Made by a program: the position numbers and the translations under genes. Source: a virus. Taken from it: a DNA stretch of 28,880 bases. The notes beneath the pieces are model-generated. The model was not told the DNA's origin. It did not search any database and saw nothing but the letters and a program-made list of their open reading frames with translations. Position 1 is the first letter of the stretch. Every line of letters begins with the position of its first letter. Below are positions 673-28,484 of the stretch, in pieces. Location: positions 1 through 28,880 of IMG/VR virus record IMGVR_UViG_3300023176_001055. One strand, 5' to 3'.

Positions 673-1469
673 TGTTCCTCCAACATCCTTTTGGCTTTGC
701 CGGTTCTTAGTTCGCTTACATGGTATTGACCATATGATAGATGGCAACCCCATTTAAATACTTCATCCGTGTCCGGATAATATGGTGTTTCTATTTTAGT
801 TATGTCATTACAACCGATCGCAGCAGCAGCACTAGTAGGTGCTAAAGGAAACACCGGTATACCATGAAATACAGCTTCGACTGCTGCATTACTGTTATAC
901 GTAACTAAAGCAAATACATCCTTGTTTAATGCTTCTTCTAACGTATCAGTTAAACGATTAATTCTTAACTTATCTCTTTGCCTAACTTCGATTGGTCTGT
1001 CTGTATAACTCTTTAATGTGTTAACAGTTTTTGAAATCCAATCATCTAAATCCTGTCCGTAAAATTTCATAGGCTTTTCGTCAGGTGCAGCAATTAAAAT
1101 TTTTCTGCCTCCCTTTTTCATTTTATTAATCTTTTTGTTAAACTGTTTAAATCTATCACTCGGCCTATCAATAATTTTTGAATGTTGAAGATCATTCTTT
1201 ACAATTCTGTGCCAGTATTTCCATCCGTTAGGATTAGTAACCGAAGGTTCATTTCCAAAATATCCTGTGTCCATAAAGTAAAAGTTTCGATTGTCTTCCC
1301 AGCATCGATGTATAACTTTTTTCTTTAAAATGCCTCTTAAAACAATAGGATCTTCAGAAGCATCGTAATCAAAATCTGCACTGTCGATAGGATCTACTTT
1401 ACATCCTCTGGCAAATTCGTTAATGTACGGGTCTTCTAATCCTTTGCTTAAAAAAATCCAATTACTCAT
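663..1469 (-). CDS. KpsC/KpsS-like capsule polysaccharide transferase (putative)
   Basis: A 268-aa protein. The C-terminal part contains FALVTYNSNAAVEAVFHGIP (about residues 187-206), which resembles the nucleotide-sugar binding region of the capsule-synthesis KpsC/KpsS (GT-B) family, where a T-x-N-S-x-x-x-x-E-A-x-x-x-G-x-P-V pattern is typical. A basic middle section (KKINKMKKGGRKILIAAP) precedes it and could be the linker into the GT-B C-domain. It is short for a full two-domain GT-B enzyme. The start overlaps the upstream fusion gene by an ATGA, indicating translational coupling, and the gene sits between a nucleotidyltransferase-cupin and a second glycosyltransferase. A role in glycan assembly is inferred from this context; the exact reaction is unknown. 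Confidence 0.6.
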   Translation of the reverse strand: MSNWIFLSKGLEDPYINEFARGCKVDPIDSADFDYDASEDPIVLRGILKKKVIHRCWEDNRNFYFMDTGYFGNEPSVTNPNGWKYWHRIVKNDLQHSKIIDRPSDRFKQFNKKINKMKKGGRKILIAAPDEKPMKFYGQDLDDWISKTVNTLKSYTDRPIEVRQRDKLRINRLTDTLEEALNKDVFALVTYNSNAAVEAVFHGIPVFPLAPTSAAAAIGCNDITKIETPYYPDTDEVFKWGCHLSYGQYHVSELRTGKAKRMLEEQWN

Positions 1470-2239
1470 TTTCTCTCAATATCTTCCTCGACACAATCTT
1501 CCCCGTATTGTATTTCAACAATACGTAATGGTGTATCGTGTTCGTTTGATAGTTGATGCCATTCGTTTACTGGAATATGTAAACTTTGGTGTTGTTCAAA
1601 AACACCTCTTAATTCATAATCGGTTGCTCGATTAATTGTGTAAACTGTTGCCGTTCCTTCCGCTACAAACCAGTGTTCACTACGCTTTTGATGTCTTTGC
1701 ATAGATAACCTTTTACCTGGTTCTACAGTTAATTCTTTTACTTTGGTATGACTACCGTACTCATGAATCACTCTATAGTAACCCCATTCTCTTTTTGTTT
1801 TTGGTGCTTTCCATTCTTCAAGTATCCAACTACTCGAATTCATTTTGTTCTCACCACCAACACCAAATTTAAATCTTACATTTGGCTGGTCTTTGTAAAA
1901 CTCCATTTCTGGAATATTTTCTGATGTTCGATCTCCACCGTTTGCAAAAATAATTTGGGTATTTGAAGATGTTGTTGCCATTGTTTTGTATATAGCGCCA
2001 GTAGCACTACCGTCACTGTCGTCAAATGAAATAACTTTGTCTACTACACTTAATTCTTTTATAATAGCGACTCTTTCTGCCATAGGCATAAAAGGACGAC
2101 CTTTTTTATTAGTAAGCCATTCATCAGAATTTAAACCTACCCAAAGTTCGTCACCTAGTTTCTTCGCTGCTTTAAAATATTCGATATGCCCTGAATGTAA
2201 TGGATCAAAACCTCCAGTAACTAATACAATTGTTTTCAT
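1466..2239 (-). CDS. Nucleotidyltransferase fused to phosphomannose-isomerase-type cupin
   Basis: A 257-aa two-domain protein. Residues 1-140 are a cytidylyltransferase-like domain: GGFDPLHSGH at 9-18 is the HxGH nucleotide-binding motif, and SSSWIL near 135-140 resembles the second conserved motif (ISST-type) of RfaE/HldE-like enzymes. Residues 150-257 are a type-II mannose-6-phosphate isomerase cupin: PGKRLSMQRHQKRSEHW (174-190) carries the metal-ligand His/Glu pattern, and HQLSNE followed by VEIQYGEDCVEEDIER matches the conserved C-terminal motif. Known family roles are activating a sugar phosphate (NMP transfer) and isomerising or binding a sugar phosphate. The fusion suggests supply of an activated sugar to the two transferases downstream. 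A late-promoter-like box lies 25-32 nt upstream, with a weak AAAGG ribosome site. The substrate is unknown. Confidence 0.8.
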   Translation of the reverse strand: MKTIVLVTGGFDPLHSGHIEYFKAAKKLGDELWVGLNSDEWLTNKKGRPFMPMAERVAIIKELSVVDKVISFDDSDGSATGAIYKTMATTSSNTQIIFANGGDRTSENIPEMEFYKDQPNVRFKFGVGGENKMNSSSWILEEWKAPKTKREWGYYRVIHEYGSHTKVKELTVEPGKRLSMQRHQKRSEHWFVAEGTATVYTINRATDYELRGVFEQHQSLHIPVNEWHQLSNEHDTPLRIVEIQYGEDCVEEDIERK

Positions 2240-2263: not shown

Positions 2264-2271
2264 ATATTTAT
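2264..2271 (-). promoter_or_regulatory. Late-promoter-like box for the glycan operon
   Basis: The minus strand reads ATAAATAT (CATAAATA if shifted by one), close to the T4 late box TATAAATA. It lies about 25 nt before the ATG at 2239, with AAAGG between. It is divergent from the box at 2288-2295, so a 77-bp gap drives both cassettes. Confidence 0.55.
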
Positions 2272-2287
2272 GTGCGTAGTTAATGCG

Positions 2288-2295
2288 ATAAATAT
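2288..2295 (+). promoter_or_regulatory. Late-promoter-like box for the kinase-sulfotransferase operon
   Basis: ATAAATAT in the context GCGATAAATATTAA. The expected start site leaves a leader of roughly 16 nt that contains a GCAGGAAA ribosome site before the ATG at 2317. Confidence 0.55.
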
Positions 2296-2316: not shown

Positions 2317-2766
2317 ATGAAAATATTAATATGCGGGTTACCCGGAAGTGGAAAAACAACTTTGGCAAAACCATTTGCTGAATTAATAGGCGGAATACAC
2401 ATTAATGCTGATCAAGTTAGAGAGCATTATAAAGATTGGGATTTTAGTTTGGAAGGTAGAATTAGGCAAGCACAACGTATGCGTCATTTAGCAGATGGCA
2501 TTGTTATGGCAGGTAAAATTGCTGTTGCAGATTTTGTTTGTCCTACGAAAGGTGCAAGATCAGAGTTTGATGCAGATTATACAATCTGGATGGATACTAT
2601 CAAAGAAGGTCGATATGATGATACTAATAAAATGTTTGTTCCATTAGAGAAAGGTGAATACAACTATCATGTTTCTCAATGGTTCAATGATACTCATCAA
2701 CAACTATTAAAAGTAGTAACTAACTACATTAATAACAAAAATGGAAAACATACAGAGAGGTTATAA
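2317..2766 (+). CDS. Adenylylsulfate kinase-like P-loop kinase
   Basis: A 149-aa cytoplasmic kinase. Residues 7-15 (GLPGSGKTT) are the Walker A loop. HINADQVREHY (about 28-38) corresponds to the D-x-x-R substrate region of APS kinase, and the segment ADGIVMAGKIAVADFVCPTK followed by GAR matches the conserved A-x-x-G-x-x-V-x-x-x-F-x-x-P-x-x-x-x-R stretch of CysC. Known CysC enzymes phosphorylate adenylylsulfate to PAPS, the sulfate donor for sulfotransferases. It is shorter than bacterial CysC (about 200 aa), and the CysC lid is reduced. It is the first gene of a three-gene plus-strand operon, joined to the next by TAATG and ending in a sulfotransferase, which supports the PAPS role. An alternative is a generic small-molecule kinase. 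Confidence 0.75.
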   Translation: MKILICGLPGSGKTTLAKPFAELIGGIHINADQVREHYKDWDFSLEGRIRQAQRMRHLADGIVMAGKIAVADFVCPTKGARSEFDADYTIWMDTIKEGRYDDTNKMFVPLEKGEYNYHVSQWFNDTHQQLLKVVTNYINNKNGKHTERL

Positions 2767-3155
2767 TGTTTGATTTAAAAAAGCCTACAGTGCAGTTATT
2801 AGGAAGATGGCAGCCTTGGCATAAAGGACACACTGAATTATTTAGAAAGGCTCTAGCAAAAACAGGCCAAGTTTGTGTAATGGTCAGAGATGTACACGGT
2901 GTTGATGCTGGTATGGGAAATGATGACAATCCGTTCGAACATACCGAAGTTGTAATTAATATTCAAGCCGCATTACTTGCAGAAGGATATACACACGGTG
3001 TAGAATATATTCTAGTTCAAGTACCAAATATAGTTGATATTAGTTATGGAAGAGGAGTAGGTTATACATTTACTCAACACGATTTAGGTGAAGACATACA
3101 TAATATCAGCGCAACAGACATACGTGCAGAAATGAGGTCTCAAGGCAAACTTTAA
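2766..3155 (+). CDS. NadM/ATP-sulfurylase-like nucleotidyltransferase
   Basis: A 129-aa single-domain nucleotidyltransferase of the HxGH superfamily. GRWQPWHKGHTELF near the N-terminus is the GRFQPxHxGH motif, the middle has DNPFEHTEVV (compare NPFTAGER of archaeal NMN adenylyltransferases), and the C-terminus has ISATDIRAEM, the ISGTxxR motif shared by NadM and ATP sulfurylase. The family moves AMP or CMP onto a phosphorylated or sulfated acceptor. Its position between an APS-kinase-like gene and a sulfotransferase suggests it could make APS from ATP and sulfate, but at 129 aa it lacks most of a classical ATP sulfurylase, and the NadM resemblance is at least as strong. Stop and start codons are fused (TAATG) on both sides. 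Confidence 0.7.
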   Translation: MFDLKKPTVQLLGRWQPWHKGHTELFRKALAKTGQVCVMVRDVHGVDAGMGNDDNPFEHTEVVINIQAALLAEGYTHGVEYILVQVPNIVDISYGRGVGYTFTQHDLGEDIHNISATDIRAEMRSQGKL

Positions 3156-3688
3156 TGGCAATACTTGTTAAAGAACCTAAAAGATTCACATACATACACA
3201 TTCCTAAAACTGCTGGTACAAGTGTTACAAATGCGTTATTATCTATAGGTGGTGAACTAATTGGACGTAAACATTCTCCTAGATCTGTATTAAAAGAAGA
3301 TTTAGGTTTTGTATTCACTATAGTTAGAAACCCGTGGGAAAGAATTGTTAGTGGTTGGACGCACGATAAAAAAGCATCATGGCGTAGCAAATATCCAATG
3401 CTAGAAAAAGAGTTTAACGATGGTATATATGAATATTTGGAAGTAAGAAAAACTTTAAAACATTCACAATTAAATTATATCAATAAAGATGATATGATTT
3501 TAAGATACGAAAATCTAAATGAAGATTGGCATCATCTACGAAATATCTTATTTGTTGAGATGCCAGACCTTCCTAGATTAGAAGTAGGATCACATAATCA
3601 TTATAGAGATTATTATAATCAAAAAACTAAAGATTATGTTTACCAAAAATATAAAATTGAAATTGATACTTTAGGGTATGAATTTTAA
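3155..3688 (+). CDS. PAPS-dependent sulfotransferase (Sulfotransfer_2-like)
   Basis: A 177-aa protein. IPKTAGTS (16-23) is the 5'-phosphosulfate binding loop and IVRNPWERIVSGW (56-68) is the 3'-phosphate motif of carbohydrate sulfotransferases. The conserved spacing and the later RYENL motif, which commonly closes the fold, support a true sulfotransferase. The reaction would be transfer of sulfate from PAPS to a hydroxyl of a glycan or other acceptor. It is the last gene of the trio begun by an APS-kinase-like gene. Its stop shares TTAA with the stop of the convergent uvsY gene. No signal peptide is visible, so it acts in the cytoplasm. The acceptor is unknown; a glycan made by the divergent operon is a natural candidate. 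Confidence 0.85.
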   Translation: MAILVKEPKRFTYIHIPKTAGTSVTNALLSIGGELIGRKHSPRSVLKEDLGFVFTIVRNPWERIVSGWTHDKKASWRSKYPMLEKEFNDGIYEYLEVRKTLKHSQLNYINKDDMILRYENLNEDWHHLRNILFVEMPDLPRLEVGSHNHYRDYYNQKTKDYVYQKYKIEIDTLGYEF

Positions 3689-9740: not shown

Positions 9741-9748
9741 TATTTATC
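9741..9748 (-). promoter_or_regulatory. Late-promoter-like box before the 750-aa gene
   Basis: GATAAATA, ending 7 nt before the ATG at 9733. It begins inside the TGA stop of gp17. If the start site is spaced as in T4, the leader is about 2 nt. Confidence 0.5.
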
Positions 9749-11336
9749 AATATCCTCCGCTAACGAAGATCGGCATTGGGAACTGATCTTCAGTCAATCT
9801 TTCAGTCAATCTTTCGTATATTTTTGGATCCCAATCTGCTAATAGATTAGCCATTCGTACAATTAACAATACAGCTGACACTAAATCGTCGTGTTCACCG
9901 CTTTTGGCAGCATACCCTGTACCGTGCGATACAAATGTTTTAAGTTCTGATATAAGCGGTTTGCTGTATATTGTAAGTTTATTCTTTTCAAGTAGATTTT
10001 TAAATGAACTACACGCTGTAATTTTTGTTTTATGTGTGGTGTTAAACCCTTTTCTATAACGTCTTACGTGTCCTTTTCTAATAGGCTCACTTAAAAACAA
10101 TCCTGCGAAGTTTTCTTCACCAATATCTTTAATTACAACAAGTGCTGCTTCGCCTAGTGTATTGTTTTCAACACTATAGTAAATAACAGGATTGTCGTTG
10201 CCTTTTTCTCTCATTTGTTCAGAGATATATTGACAAAGATCTTTTAAAATTCTAATTTGTCCTTGTACAGGAGTTGTATTATGACGCCATTCTGCTACTT
10301 GAGTTAGACTAGGCATTTCAAATACTTGAATAGCAGCATAGTCACCACCTGTGCCTAAACTAGGATCTAAACTAATAAGATATGTTGCTCTTGGATTAAT
10401 ATCTTTATACCAACGTGTTTGACCCATCGACATTACAGGTTCAACACCTTCAAGCTCTGCTAGTTTAACTGAATTAATAAGTGTTTCATCAAAGATCAAG
10501 AACTCACAATCAAATTCTCGGCGGAATCTTTCTTCACCAATCTTGGCTTTTTCTTCTGCCGCCCATGCGTCATCTCTATCTGGATGTTCTTCCCAATGTG
10601 CAAAGTAAGGAAAGAAACCGTTAGTTCCTACCTTTTGATCGTTGCCATACTCGTCGAATTTTTTATTTGCTTCTGTCCATATCATAGCAAATTGATCTTC
10701 ATCTGAGTTTGGTGTTGAAGTTACAATTGCCTTACCGCCTGTTGATAGTGTAGGTGAAAGCGCAGTCCAAAACTCTCGAGCTTTTTCAGGAGGTTGCACA
10801 AACGCAAACTCGTCACAGTATATTAATGAAAGTGATTTACCACGTCCAGTATCTTCTGTTGTAGTAGTTGCTTGTATTCTACTACCGTTATCAAATTCAA
10901 TAGTGTTTCTGTTATAGGTATAGATACCTGCACGAATAAAGTCAGGTAAGTTTTCATAACCGAATCTATATCTGTTCATGATATCCTGCGCACCTGTATA
11001 TTTGTGTGCAGCAATTAGTACTTGTGCTTCTGGTGTAAACATACAATACCATAATAGATATGCCGCAGCACAAGTTGTTTTACCCATCTGTCTAGGTAAC
11101 ATTGCTACAGTATATCTGTAATCGTGATATGCTCTTAATAATTCTTCTTGATAACCGTAAGGAGCAAATTTCATTGAACCTTTAGTTGGGTGCTGGATCT
11201 TAATAAAGTTTTTAGCAAAGTATAATGGACCGTCAACAGGATCCATACACTTTTCTAAGTGATTTAATTCATCAATTGTGTATTTTATCTTACTATGGGC
11301 CTTCTTAATTTGAACGCCGTCTAAACTCTTTGCCAT
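9747..11336 (-). CDS. 17: Terminase large subunit gp17
   Basis: A 529-aa DNA-packaging motor and nuclease. The N-terminal ATPase has Walker A PRQMGKTT (81-88), Walker B LIYCDEF (171-177) and the coupling motif TSTPN (207-210 region). The C-terminal RNase-H-like nuclease has the acidic triad D324 (SLDPS), E390 (SVENN) and D483/D484 (EHDD). It cuts concatemeric DNA and pumps it into the prohead through the portal. Length is a little below T4 gp17 (610 aa). A late box AGTAAATA ends exactly 5 nt before the ATG and a terminator lies just upstream, so it starts its own transcript. There is no ribosome site at normal distance. Confidence 0.95.
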   Translation of the reverse strand: MAKSLDGVQIKKAHSKIKYTIDELNHLEKCMDPVDGPLYFAKNFIKIQHPTKGSMKFAPYGYQEELLRAYHDYRYTVAMLPRQMGKTTCAAAYLLWYCMFTPEAQVLIAAHKYTGAQDIMNRYRFGYENLPDFIRAGIYTYNRNTIEFDNGSRIQATTTTEDTGRGKSLSLIYCDEFAFVQPPEKAREFWTALSPTLSTGGKAIVTSTPNSDEDQFAMIWTEANKKFDEYGNDQKVGTNGFFPYFAHWEEHPDRDDAWAAEEKAKIGEERFRREFDCEFLIFDETLINSVKLAELEGVEPVMSMGQTRWYKDINPRATYLISLDPSLGTGGDYAAIQVFEMPSLTQVAEWRHNTTPVQGQIRILKDLCQYISEQMREKGNDNPVIYYSVENNTLGEAALVVIKDIGEENFAGLFLSEPIRKGHVRRYRKGFNTTHKTKITACSSFKNLLEKNKLTIYSKPLISELKTFVSHGTGYAAKSGEHDDLVSAVLLIVRMANLLADWDPKIYERLTERLTEDQFPMPIFVSGGY

Positions 11337-26408: not shown

Positions 26409-26416
26409 TATTTAGT
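26409..26416 (-). promoter_or_regulatory. Late-promoter-like box before the cupredoxin-like gene
   Basis: ACTAAATA, 16 nt before the ATG, with GAGGT between. It overlaps the TAA stop of the protease gene. Confidence 0.45.
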
Positions 26417-28484
26417 ATTTCTTAACTCTTATATTTAAACCGTTTCTAGTGTTTAAATTTGACATAACTTTTCTAGGCCCGATCTTAAATCTCGCATCAA
26501 CAGCACCCTGATATAGAACTCTTGGAGATCCACCTTCTAAACTTCGATAGTCAGTCCAATTCGCATCGTTAGGAGTGGTTGATTCAGTACCATAATAAAA
26601 GTCCGAACTGTCTTGGGCTGTAAGTCCAAGGCACCATTCTTTTAATTCTTTCCATGTCCAGTCTCTGTTGTGTTCCATAATTGTTGCTAAAAATCCACAA
26701 GCAACAGGACAAGCAGCACTTGTTCCACTGAAAGCACAATCATATGCAGTTCCACCGTTATATGTAAATCCACTGTATGTAGCAGGATACTGTCCTTGAT
26801 TGGTATAAGCCTTGTTTGCTGCTAGTGTGCCATCAGCAGCAGCATACACATCTATACCTTCACCTCTATCGCTATAACTTACTTTAGTTTCAAGACTACC
26901 ATTATAATCATCATCTAATGCTCCGATGTTTATAGTTTTATAGTCAGTGGTTCCATCTTCTTTAATGTATCTTCCACCTTGTTGTGGAAATCCTGTTCTA
27001 TTTGTTGTTCCGTATACAGCAACACCAAATTCAAACATTACTGAACCTTCTAAACTTCCGCCGTCGGTTGTTGTAATGTAATTGTTGTAATCAGGATGAC
27101 CTTCTTTAACTACCTTTTGGTTAGAATTTCCAGCTGCACCTATGAATATCACACCTTCTTCTATCATCTCGTCCTCAGCAGTAGTCAGTGAATTATCAAT
27201 CATTTGACTTTTCCAACGTCCGCCGTCCCCCTGTGTTCCCATATGACTTAACCAAGCAATTCCAGTTTCTGTTGTATAGGATACATTGGCAGTTGCACGG
27301 TGAGTATAATATAAGGTTGATGCATTAGAAACATTGGCATTGGATCCGCTTGGAGCCTTGTTTGATCGAAACCCCCAACTGTTAGAACTTAGTGTTGGAT
27401 CTTTTGCACCAAAGAGAGGATTAACAGGTTTTAGTCTATGAAATAGTTTTTGTATATCAAATCCTTCTTCAATACCTGAACCATAAGCTCCATAAAGATC
27501 AAGCATCCATTTATTAGCATTGTACGCCCAGCCCTGTGTTCTTCCGAATGTTAATGCACCACAAGGTGTGCCGTGTTCTCCATCAGTGCCTGATGGTCTA
27601 ATAGTATTATCGCCACTTGTATTTAATCTGGTATAAGTTGCGCTAACTGTTACTGTTCCTTCGTTCGCAAACTTTGCGCTTCGCGCACCGGCATTCCCCC
27701 ACCAATCTCTTGCCACACTCTCCACAGGAACAGTTGTACCGTCCCAGCGTGTGGTTAATCTTGTACCTGGATCAGCATCAAACCATTCTGGATCAATATA
27801 ATAAGGTGCATCAAGAACAAGATCCAATACATCACAAGTACCGTTTCCTGGAAGTAAATTTCCGCCTGTATATCCTGTTGGCTTTTCAACTTCTGTTACT
27901 CCATCTGAAAGTAATACACAATTGTTTTGGAATTCGGGATGTCCTATCCACATTCCTTCGTCACATACAATAACATCAATATTTTTTCCTGTTCCGTACT
28001 GAGTAGGATTTATTTCAGGGATAGCATTATCTGCTAGTGAATTATCTACCCAAGGATCTAAAAACTGTTGATGTCTATAAAGTGAATAACTTGCACGATT
28101 AGAATCTGCTGCTGTAGGTATTCCACCTGGCAATGTATTAGAAACTGAAAACTCTCTATAGTTTTTAATTGTTCCGGAATAACGAGCTACTAATTCTGGA
28201 CGGACTGCTTGTAGTTCATCCTGTGGTGGTTTAAATTCTTCTGGATATTTAGAATAATCGATATTAATAAATCTTATTCTAGGATCATTTTTAAGTTGAT
28301 CTGCTTCTTCTTGTGTAAGTAGGTATGTACCGCGAGTTGAACTATGTAATTTATCATCATCACATTCAATACAACGTTCCGGTACTTCGTCACAATTATG
28401 GCCATCGTGTACAAGTTCGTGATGTAGTTCGTCCCATTGTTCTTCGGTATACGTACCAAGTTGGTAATATTTTTCCTCAGCCAT
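26412..28484 (-). CDS. Subtilisin-like serine protease (S8 family)
   Basis: A 690-aa protein. Catalytic residues fit S8: Asp in VIVCDEGMWI (D175), His in DGEHGTPCGA (H304), oxyanion Asn in FIGAAGNSNQ (N453), and Ser in FSGTSAACPVACG (S589). LSSNSWGFRS is the substrate-binding strand. Residues 53-83 (TYLLTQEEADQLKNDPRI and following) resemble an I9-like inhibitor prodomain, so it may be made inactive and self-cleave. The N-terminus has an acidic Cys-rich segment and no signal peptide. It lies between fibre-like genes, so a virion-associated protease that processes tail proteins or degrades a host surface protein is plausible. All catalytic residues are intact. Confidence 0.88.
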   Translation of the reverse strand: MAEEKYYQLGTYTEEQWDELHHELVHDGHNCDEVPERCIECDDDKLHSSTRGTYLLTQEEADQLKNDPRIRFINIDYSKYPEEFKPPQDELQAVRPELVARYSGTIKNYREFSVSNTLPGGIPTAADSNRASYSLYRHQQFLDPWVDNSLADNAIPEINPTQYGTGKNIDVIVCDEGMWIGHPEFQNNCVLLSDGVTEVEKPTGYTGGNLLPGNGTCDVLDLVLDAPYYIDPEWFDADPGTRLTTRWDGTTVPVESVARDWWGNAGARSAKFANEGTVTVSATYTRLNTSGDNTIRPSGTDGEHGTPCGALTFGRTQGWAYNANKWMLDLYGAYGSGIEEGFDIQKLFHRLKPVNPLFGAKDPTLSSNSWGFRSNKAPSGSNANVSNASTLYYTHRATANVSYTTETGIAWLSHMGTQGDGGRWKSQMIDNSLTTAEDEMIEEGVIFIGAAGNSNQKVVKEGHPDYNNYITTTDGGSLEGSVMFEFGVAVYGTTNRTGFPQQGGRYIKEDGTTDYKTINIGALDDDYNGSLETKVSYSDRGEGIDVYAAADGTLAANKAYTNQGQYPATYSGFTYNGGTAYDCAFSGTSAACPVACGFLATIMEHNRDWTWKELKEWCLGLTAQDSSDFYYGTESTTPNDANWTDYRSLEGGSPRVLYQGAVDARFKIGPRKVMSNLNTRNGLNIRVKKY

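Follow-up and report, generated by a model that had tools for sequence, protein, structure and literature searches.

A phage gene pair encoding an APS-kinase-like protein and a small nucleotidyltransferase as a candidate split PAPS synthase

A three-gene locus in a T4-like phage

The window, i.e. the entire stretch of DNA analysed here, is a virus record of 28,880 bases, assigned to a marine T4-like phage. T4-like and jumbo phages provide the matches to its terminase large subunit, and a tail sheath protein, UvsX and a gp32-like protein were picked out by eye from the list of open reading frames (ORFs). The terminase large subunit is encoded at 9747-11336 (minus strand), and among isolates its nearest counterparts (54.6%) are in PA5oct-type jumbo phages of Pseudomonas. 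In the structural region, 26412-28484 (minus strand) encodes a 690-aa protein whose sequence shows, by eye, an Asp, a His (HGTPCG) and a Ser (SGTSAACP) motif as in subtilase-type serine proteases. The features of the locus under study are the following:

1466-2239, minus strand: divergent neighbour in which a sugar-nucleotidyltransferase-like domain is fused to a mannose-6-P-isomerase-type cupin; it heads a glycan cluster
2265-2272, minus strand: divergent box CATAAATA, facing the glycan genes
2287-2294, plus strand: late-promoter-like box GATAAATA before kin; one mismatch
2317-2766, plus strand: kin, 149 aa, APS-kinase-like P-loop kinase with GLPGSGKT (P-loop), NADQVR, DWDFS..GR and FVCP
2766-3155, plus strand: NTT, 129 aa, HxGH nucleotidyltransferase and putative minimal ATP sulfurylase with GRWQPWHKGH, YGRGVGY and ISATDIR
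3155-3688, plus strand: sulfotransferase, 177 aa, PAPS-type, with HIPKTAGTS near the N-terminus and VRNPWERIVSGW

The original prediction described these last three ORFs as coupled genes for an APS-kinase-like enzyme, an HxGH nucleotidyltransferase and a PAPS-type sulfotransferase. This description holds: TAATG joins kin to NTT and NTT to the sulfotransferase gene, the first and third proteins score over the Pfam cut-offs for APS_kinase and Sulfotransfer_2, respectively, and NTT has the GRWQPWHKGH motif together with a C-terminal ISATDIR. Moreover, the three genes are not chance ORFs: homologues in IMG/VR number in the hundreds for kin and NTT (229 and 501 confirmed stretches, respectively) and ten for the sulfotransferase.

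A late-type box had also been proposed to precede the operon. The box has one mismatch. Overall, sites resembling TATAAATA are somewhat rarer in the window than chance predicts (63 one-mismatch hits versus 76 expected). Each of the six ATAAATA heptamers in the window (at 2265, 2288, 6575, 9741, 13165 and 21859), however, is followed within about 80 bases by a gene on the same strand, and the box recurs about 30 bases before kin in the related phages L023, L026 and L044. This placement is no more than suggestive of a possible late promoter of the phage.

The divergent neighbour matches Pfam CTP_transf_like (1.8e-15) and MannoseP_isomer (5.3e-25), and a family 8 glycosyltransferase is among the next genes of the cluster. 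A divergent glycosyltransferase cluster recurs beside kin and NTT in many phages. This adjacency suggests a glycan as the acceptor of the sulfotransferase, and the cluster may provide it.

Sequence families and predicted folds of the three proteins

Kin matches Pfam APS_kinase (PF01583) over the curated cut-off (7.8e-8; 32.9 versus 21.1 bits), tied with AAA_33 (8.2e-8), and is below the cut-off of the NCBI apsK equivalog TIGR00455 (26.1 versus 138.7 bits), against which fused relatives of kin reach 50 bits. The fused relatives in alphaproteobacteria match APS_kinase at 4.8e-14 and keep a segment such as NRDLGFSLPDRIEQARRMG, which ties the kin family to APS kinases. The best PDB match of a profile of 53 relatives is the APS kinase 2yvu (2.4e-11). 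Moreover, the AF2 model of kin (pLDDT 91.1) has its best predicted fold matches among APS kinases and proteins with an APS kinase domain (Z 16.6-15.4), with gluconate kinase at 15.3. In CysC of M. tuberculosis, the phosphosulfate ligands are R483 and R497, the adenine of APS stacks against F492, and D480 has been proposed as the base (PMC4373884). By motif spacing, these residues correspond to R35, R48, F43 and D32 of kin, respectively; R35, R48 and F43 do not vary across an alignment of 53 sequences, in at least 90% of which D32 is conserved. By contrast, kin has N-A-D in place of D-G-D, i.e. Asn for the first Asp, and its lid segment is shorter than the 30-residue APS kinase lid with its conserved Lys and Phe.

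The best match of NTT in Pfam is CTP_transf_like (0.0018, below the cut-off), and NTT corresponds to the C-terminal half of the fused protein family PHROG 10255 (3.4e-20). GR-x-QP-x-H-x-x-H, GR-x-VGY and S-x-T-x-x-R are invariant in the NTT family, including both His residues of HKGH (residues 19-22 of NTT). The HxGH motif is the nucleotide-binding motif of Sat-type ATP sulfurylases (PMC11697783) and is common to the whole nucleotidyltransferase superfamily.

The NTT profile is nearest to archaeal-type NMN adenylyltransferases (NMNATs), and its top PDB matches are all NMNATs; however, NTT is far below the NMNAT cut-offs (28.3 versus 127 bits for PRK01153 and 24.7 versus 181.2 bits for TIGR01527). 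The AF2 model (pLDDT 92.5) has a predicted PPAT/NMNAT fold (Z about 11); it is closest to PPAT/CoaD (Z 11.4) and matches the NMNAT 4yp7 with a Z of 10.8 over 115 residues. Between VPNI and ISxT, NTT is about 17 residues shorter than NMNATs, as judged from the flanking alignment rather than a residue-level superposition. NMNATs keep a nicotinamide-stacking Trp in this segment.

With the profile of Sat-type ATP sulfurylases (PF01747; cut-off 24.3 bits), NTT scored 12.3 bits (E 0.11), and no match to CysD (TIGR02039) was present among the NCBIfam hits with E up to 1; these profiles rule out a canonical ATP sulfurylase identity. Among the 50 solved structures listed for the NTT model, ATP sulfurylase was absent, an observation that is uninformative either way. 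Sat enzymes also have a GRDH segment and an SGT..R end, and our guess is that YGR-x-VGY in NTT could do the sulfate-binding work of GRDH, with its R96 as the conjectured sulfate ligand.

Finally, the sulfotransferase matches Pfam Sulfotransfer_2 (PF03567) over the cut-off (1.4e-8; 35.7 versus 22 bits) as well as PHROG 3347, 'Galactose-3-O-sulfotransferase' (5.1e-14). It shares its family and PAPS-binding motifs with other Sulfotransfer_2 enzymes of phages and bacteria, but differs from them in being translationally coupled to a proposed PAPS supply.

The kin-NTT pair in phages and bacteria

In nearly all of the 159 kin and NTT loci examined, the two genes were close together, i.e. their linkage is near-obligate, although gaps of about 170 bases to 1 kb separate them in some loci. 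In many phages (L012, L013, L016, L026 and others), the 170-200 bases or so between them leave room for a tiny gene. In phages of Stenotrophomonas, Xanthomonas and Clavibacter, which supplied the only five relatives in a search of isolate phages, kin and NTT form one protein (PHROG 10255), and such fusions are also present in some alphaproteobacteria and in SAR11. A NADAR gene overlaps the 5' end of the fused gene in Casjensviridae phages (L172, 7556-8732), an arrangement for which a PAPS role offers no explanation.

The sulfotransferase gene lies directly 3' of NTT in the window type, and a 29% identical protein is encoded in the same position in L023/L025. In L005/L100 and L003, a sulfotransferase gene overlaps the start of kin, while on the SAR11 chromosome L203 a sulfotransferase of another kind follows NTT. 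Direct adjacency to the pair is thus recurrent but infrequent, being limited to a handful of phage types. A stable cassette of three genes, as the original prediction had it, was not borne out: the three genes rarely co-occur, which had been named as an outcome that would refute the idea, whereas kin and NTT regularly do so. We conclude that the conserved unit is the kin-NTT pair and that the sulfotransferase is an occasional addition.

Within 1.5 kb, there were four sulfotransferase hits around 82 dereplicated kin anchors and none around 42 uvsX anchors; within 3 kb, the densities were 1.29 versus 0.99 hits per 100 kb for kin and uvsX anchors, respectively, and local enrichment could thus not be demonstrated. 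At the level of whole records, 12 of the 30 virus records with the pair contained PF03567, compared with none of 19 uvsX control records (p=0.001), or with p=0.04 against the eight longer controls only. This excess is suggestive only because the uvsX controls were shorter, some records are near-copies, and a custom sulfotransferase profile detected sulfotransferases in five other uvsX loci.

When the NTT alignment was used to scan genomes of bacteria and archaea, it retrieved chromosomes of SAR11, an abundant ocean bacterium. A QmoC-like gene lies beside NTT in 48 of 80 host loci, and AprA is encoded in 46 of these 48. The order is MetC, MFS, CADD, NTT, QmoC-like, AprB, AprA, u116 and TauE, the exporter being of the TauE/SafE type; alternatively, kin-NTT precedes CADD. 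In L175, whose NTT has 126 aa, AprA reaches 997 bits against TIGR02061 and AprB 188 bits against TIGR02060. In these apr operons, NTT is closely accompanied by the CADD-type gene, which is putatively folate-related (L175, 5277-5948, and others). In L254 and L255, kin-NTT is convergent on the genes for the QmoC-like protein, AprB and AprA. In the NTT tree, linkage to apr changes state at least three times, and the convergent type is placed within the phage group; this pattern indicates that pairs moved between phages and hosts and that apr linkage did not have a single origin. Losses could account for part of these changes.

Among 198 SAR11 genomes, aprA was detected over the cut-off in 164, NTT in 161, Sat in 11 and CysD in 7. 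NTT and aprA were both present in 149 genomes, with aprA only in 15, NTT only in 12 and neither in 22; thus, NTT tracks aprA (p=2e-11, uncorrected for ancestry in a set of related genomes whose completeness is not stated). CysD was present in none of the 161 NTT-bearing genomes and in 7 of the 37 others (p=5e-6, with related genomes that are not independent). Only in 26 of 132 listed cases was NTT within 8 kb of aprA. In most SAR11 genomes, kin-NTT lies away from aprA, near an enoyl-CoA hydratase-like gene and a gene that by eye is DmdA-like, i.e. for a DMSP demethylase (L256, L257, L258 and L228). In L258, a Sulf_transp gene is near the pair. A strong NadD-type match was found elsewhere in 10 of 13 genomes examined, so NTT is not needed for the NadD step there.

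For Ca. Pelagibacter ubique, AprBA has been described as present and cysDNCHIJ and sat as absent, while Table 3 of the same report lists one cysC in strains with aprA and cysD only in HIMB59 (PMC5069961). The text of that report, in which cysC is absent, disagrees with its table. The cysC and cysD distribution in the table is the pattern found here, and its cysC may be the kin gene. Similarly, the SAR11 sulfate pathways have been called incomplete, with aprAB core (PMC12636525). We did not find the NTT gene discussed in either report.

In alphaproteobacteria, four loci from four genomes (L215, L216, L274 and L275) have in one direction genes for a SirB/CbiX-like protein, CobA, CysI, CysH, an 88-aa protein, kin and NTT, with families assigned on L215, where NTT has 118 aa. 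L215 and L216 are on contigs of the assemblies G527 and G352, and searches of G527, G352 and G449 for Sat and CysD found neither; in G221, a Sat gene is on another contig. An operon with cysIH but no Sat or CysD leaves NTT and kin as the only visible candidates for the steps from sulfate to APS and from APS to PAPS. The host homologues are linked to enzymes of both APS and PAPS metabolism, and the cysIH operon context is the strongest single piece of evidence for an APS/PAPS role.

A candidate split PAPS synthase

The original prediction held that PAPS is made and then used at this locus, and left open whether the middle enzyme supplies APS. From the evidence above, we infer that kin and NTT most likely make PAPS, which the sulfotransferase would use, and the new evidence from the SAR11 aprBA and cysIH contexts makes APS the most likely product of NTT. 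Specifically, we consider it likely that kin and NTT are a split PAPS synthase in which kin is the APS kinase and NTT represents a third ATP sulfurylase type of minimal size. NTT would convert ATP and sulfate to APS and PPi, reversibly, through its HxGH/ISxTxxR site; kin would phosphorylate the 3'-OH of APS to give PAPS; and the coupled sulfotransferase would pass the sulfuryl group of PAPS on to an acceptor, for which a glycan made by the adjacent divergent glycosyltransferase cluster is a plausible candidate. The original prediction further suggested that a late product such as a glycan, a virion part or the host surface might be sulfated, and that this could mask virion or host from defences or superinfection. 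In SAR11, AprBA would form APS from sulfite and AMP, and NTT would then convert APS and PPi to ATP and sulfate.

A split PAPS synthase is the simplest account of all the gene contexts. In its favour are also the near-universal adjacency of kin and NTT, their fusion in other phages, and the several divergent kinds of sulfotransferase coupled or adjacent to them in phages and on one SAR11 chromosome. Against it count the similarity of NTT to NMNATs and its failure to match either ATP sulfurylase family, the NADAR gene beside the Casjensviridae fusion, the N-A-D motif, short lid and missed apsK cut-off of kin, and the mostly >8 kb distance between NTT and aprA together with the SAR11 genomes that have only one of the two.

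Like the bifunctional PAPS synthases (human PAPSS1/2 and the Sat-APS kinases of Aquifex and Thiobacillus), kin-NTT joins an APS kinase to a proposed APS maker, and kin matches their kinase domains in profile and fold; unlike them, the partner is an NMNAT-like nucleotidyltransferase of 115-150 aa rather than the large Sat, and kin departs from them in its lid and N-A-D motif. With Sat-type (PF01747) and CysDN ATP sulfurylases, NTT shares the proposed reaction and, with Sat, HxGH, but it has about one third of the length of Sat and matches neither family profile. NadM, the archaeal-type NMNAT, and bifunctional NMNAT/Nudix proteins have the same fold and GRxQPxHxGH ... NPF ... ISxTxxR pattern, but NTT differs from them in its low scores, its shorter VPNI-ISxT segment, the invariant YGR-x-VGY and the sulfur-gene context in hosts. 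Finally, the published account of the SAR11 aprBA sulfite-oxidation operon (PMC5069961, PMC12636525) includes no ATP sulfurylase for SAR11; NTT homologues, sometimes with kin, lie inside or beside this operon.

Alternatively, kin could be a true APS kinase that uses host APS while NTT does something else, such as adenylylating a different substrate, either sulfur-related or a sugar phosphate. The evidence on kin is indeed stronger than that on NTT, and in some SAR11 loci NTT has no adjacent kin and lies beside the folate-related CADD gene; however, even there it is in aprBA operons, CysD and NTT are mutually exclusive in SAR11 genomes, and no other APS source was found in G527, G352 and G449 although their operon needs APS. 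We regard this alternative as unlikely.

It is quite improbable that the pair serves NAD salvage or repair like a split NadR and thereby replenishes NAD+ that host defence has depleted; kin would then phosphorylate nicotinamide riboside or a comparable nucleoside, and NTT would adenylylate the product. Phage NadR, NadM and NadV systems provide precedents (PMC9503650), the top profile matches of NTT are NMNATs, and the NADAR gene beside the Casjensviridae fusion fits NAD or ADP-ribose metabolism. By contrast, NTT misses the NMNAT cut-offs by far and is shorter where NMNATs have the stacking Trp, kin is a relative of APS kinases rather than of the NadR-type kinase, the homologues in hosts are located together with AprBA, CysH and CysI, and a NadD-like gene is present separately in most of the NTT-bearing SAR11 genomes examined.

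Very unlikely, finally, is the synthesis of another 3'-phosphorylated adenylate, with NTT adenylylating some X-phosphate and kin phosphorylating the 3'-OH, in analogy to CoaD and CoaE in coenzyme A synthesis: the predicted fold of NTT and the shared 3'-phosphorylation chemistry would fit, but the host context (AprBA, CysH, CysI and TauE) is specifically that of APS/PAPS metabolism, and kin keeps the APS-clamping residues.

Returning to the split PAPS synthase, NTT (about 115-150 aa) is probably an ATP sulfurylase that belongs to neither the Sat nor the CysDN family. It would supply the step reported to be missing in SAR11 (from sulfite via APS to sulfate and ATP), support assimilatory sulfate reduction in some relatives, and form with kin a PAPS-producing pair exchanged between marine phages and hosts, which phages sometimes couple to a sulfotransferase. 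In the literature searched, with most subscription papers outside its scope, papers on phage PAPS cassettes, pelagiphage sulfotransferases and a SAR11 ATP sulfurylase yielded no description of the NTT family. Profiles name this small protein, if at all, as an NMN-type adenylyltransferase. If our proposal is true, NTT could close the gap in SAR11 between aprBA and the absent sat/cysDN, and some SAR11 relatives could use sulfate through NTT. Moreover, phages would bring their own supply of activated sulfate and could sulfate glycans or virions by a route undescribed in the literature found, and the pair would be a very small sulfate-activating system, practical for PAPS production.
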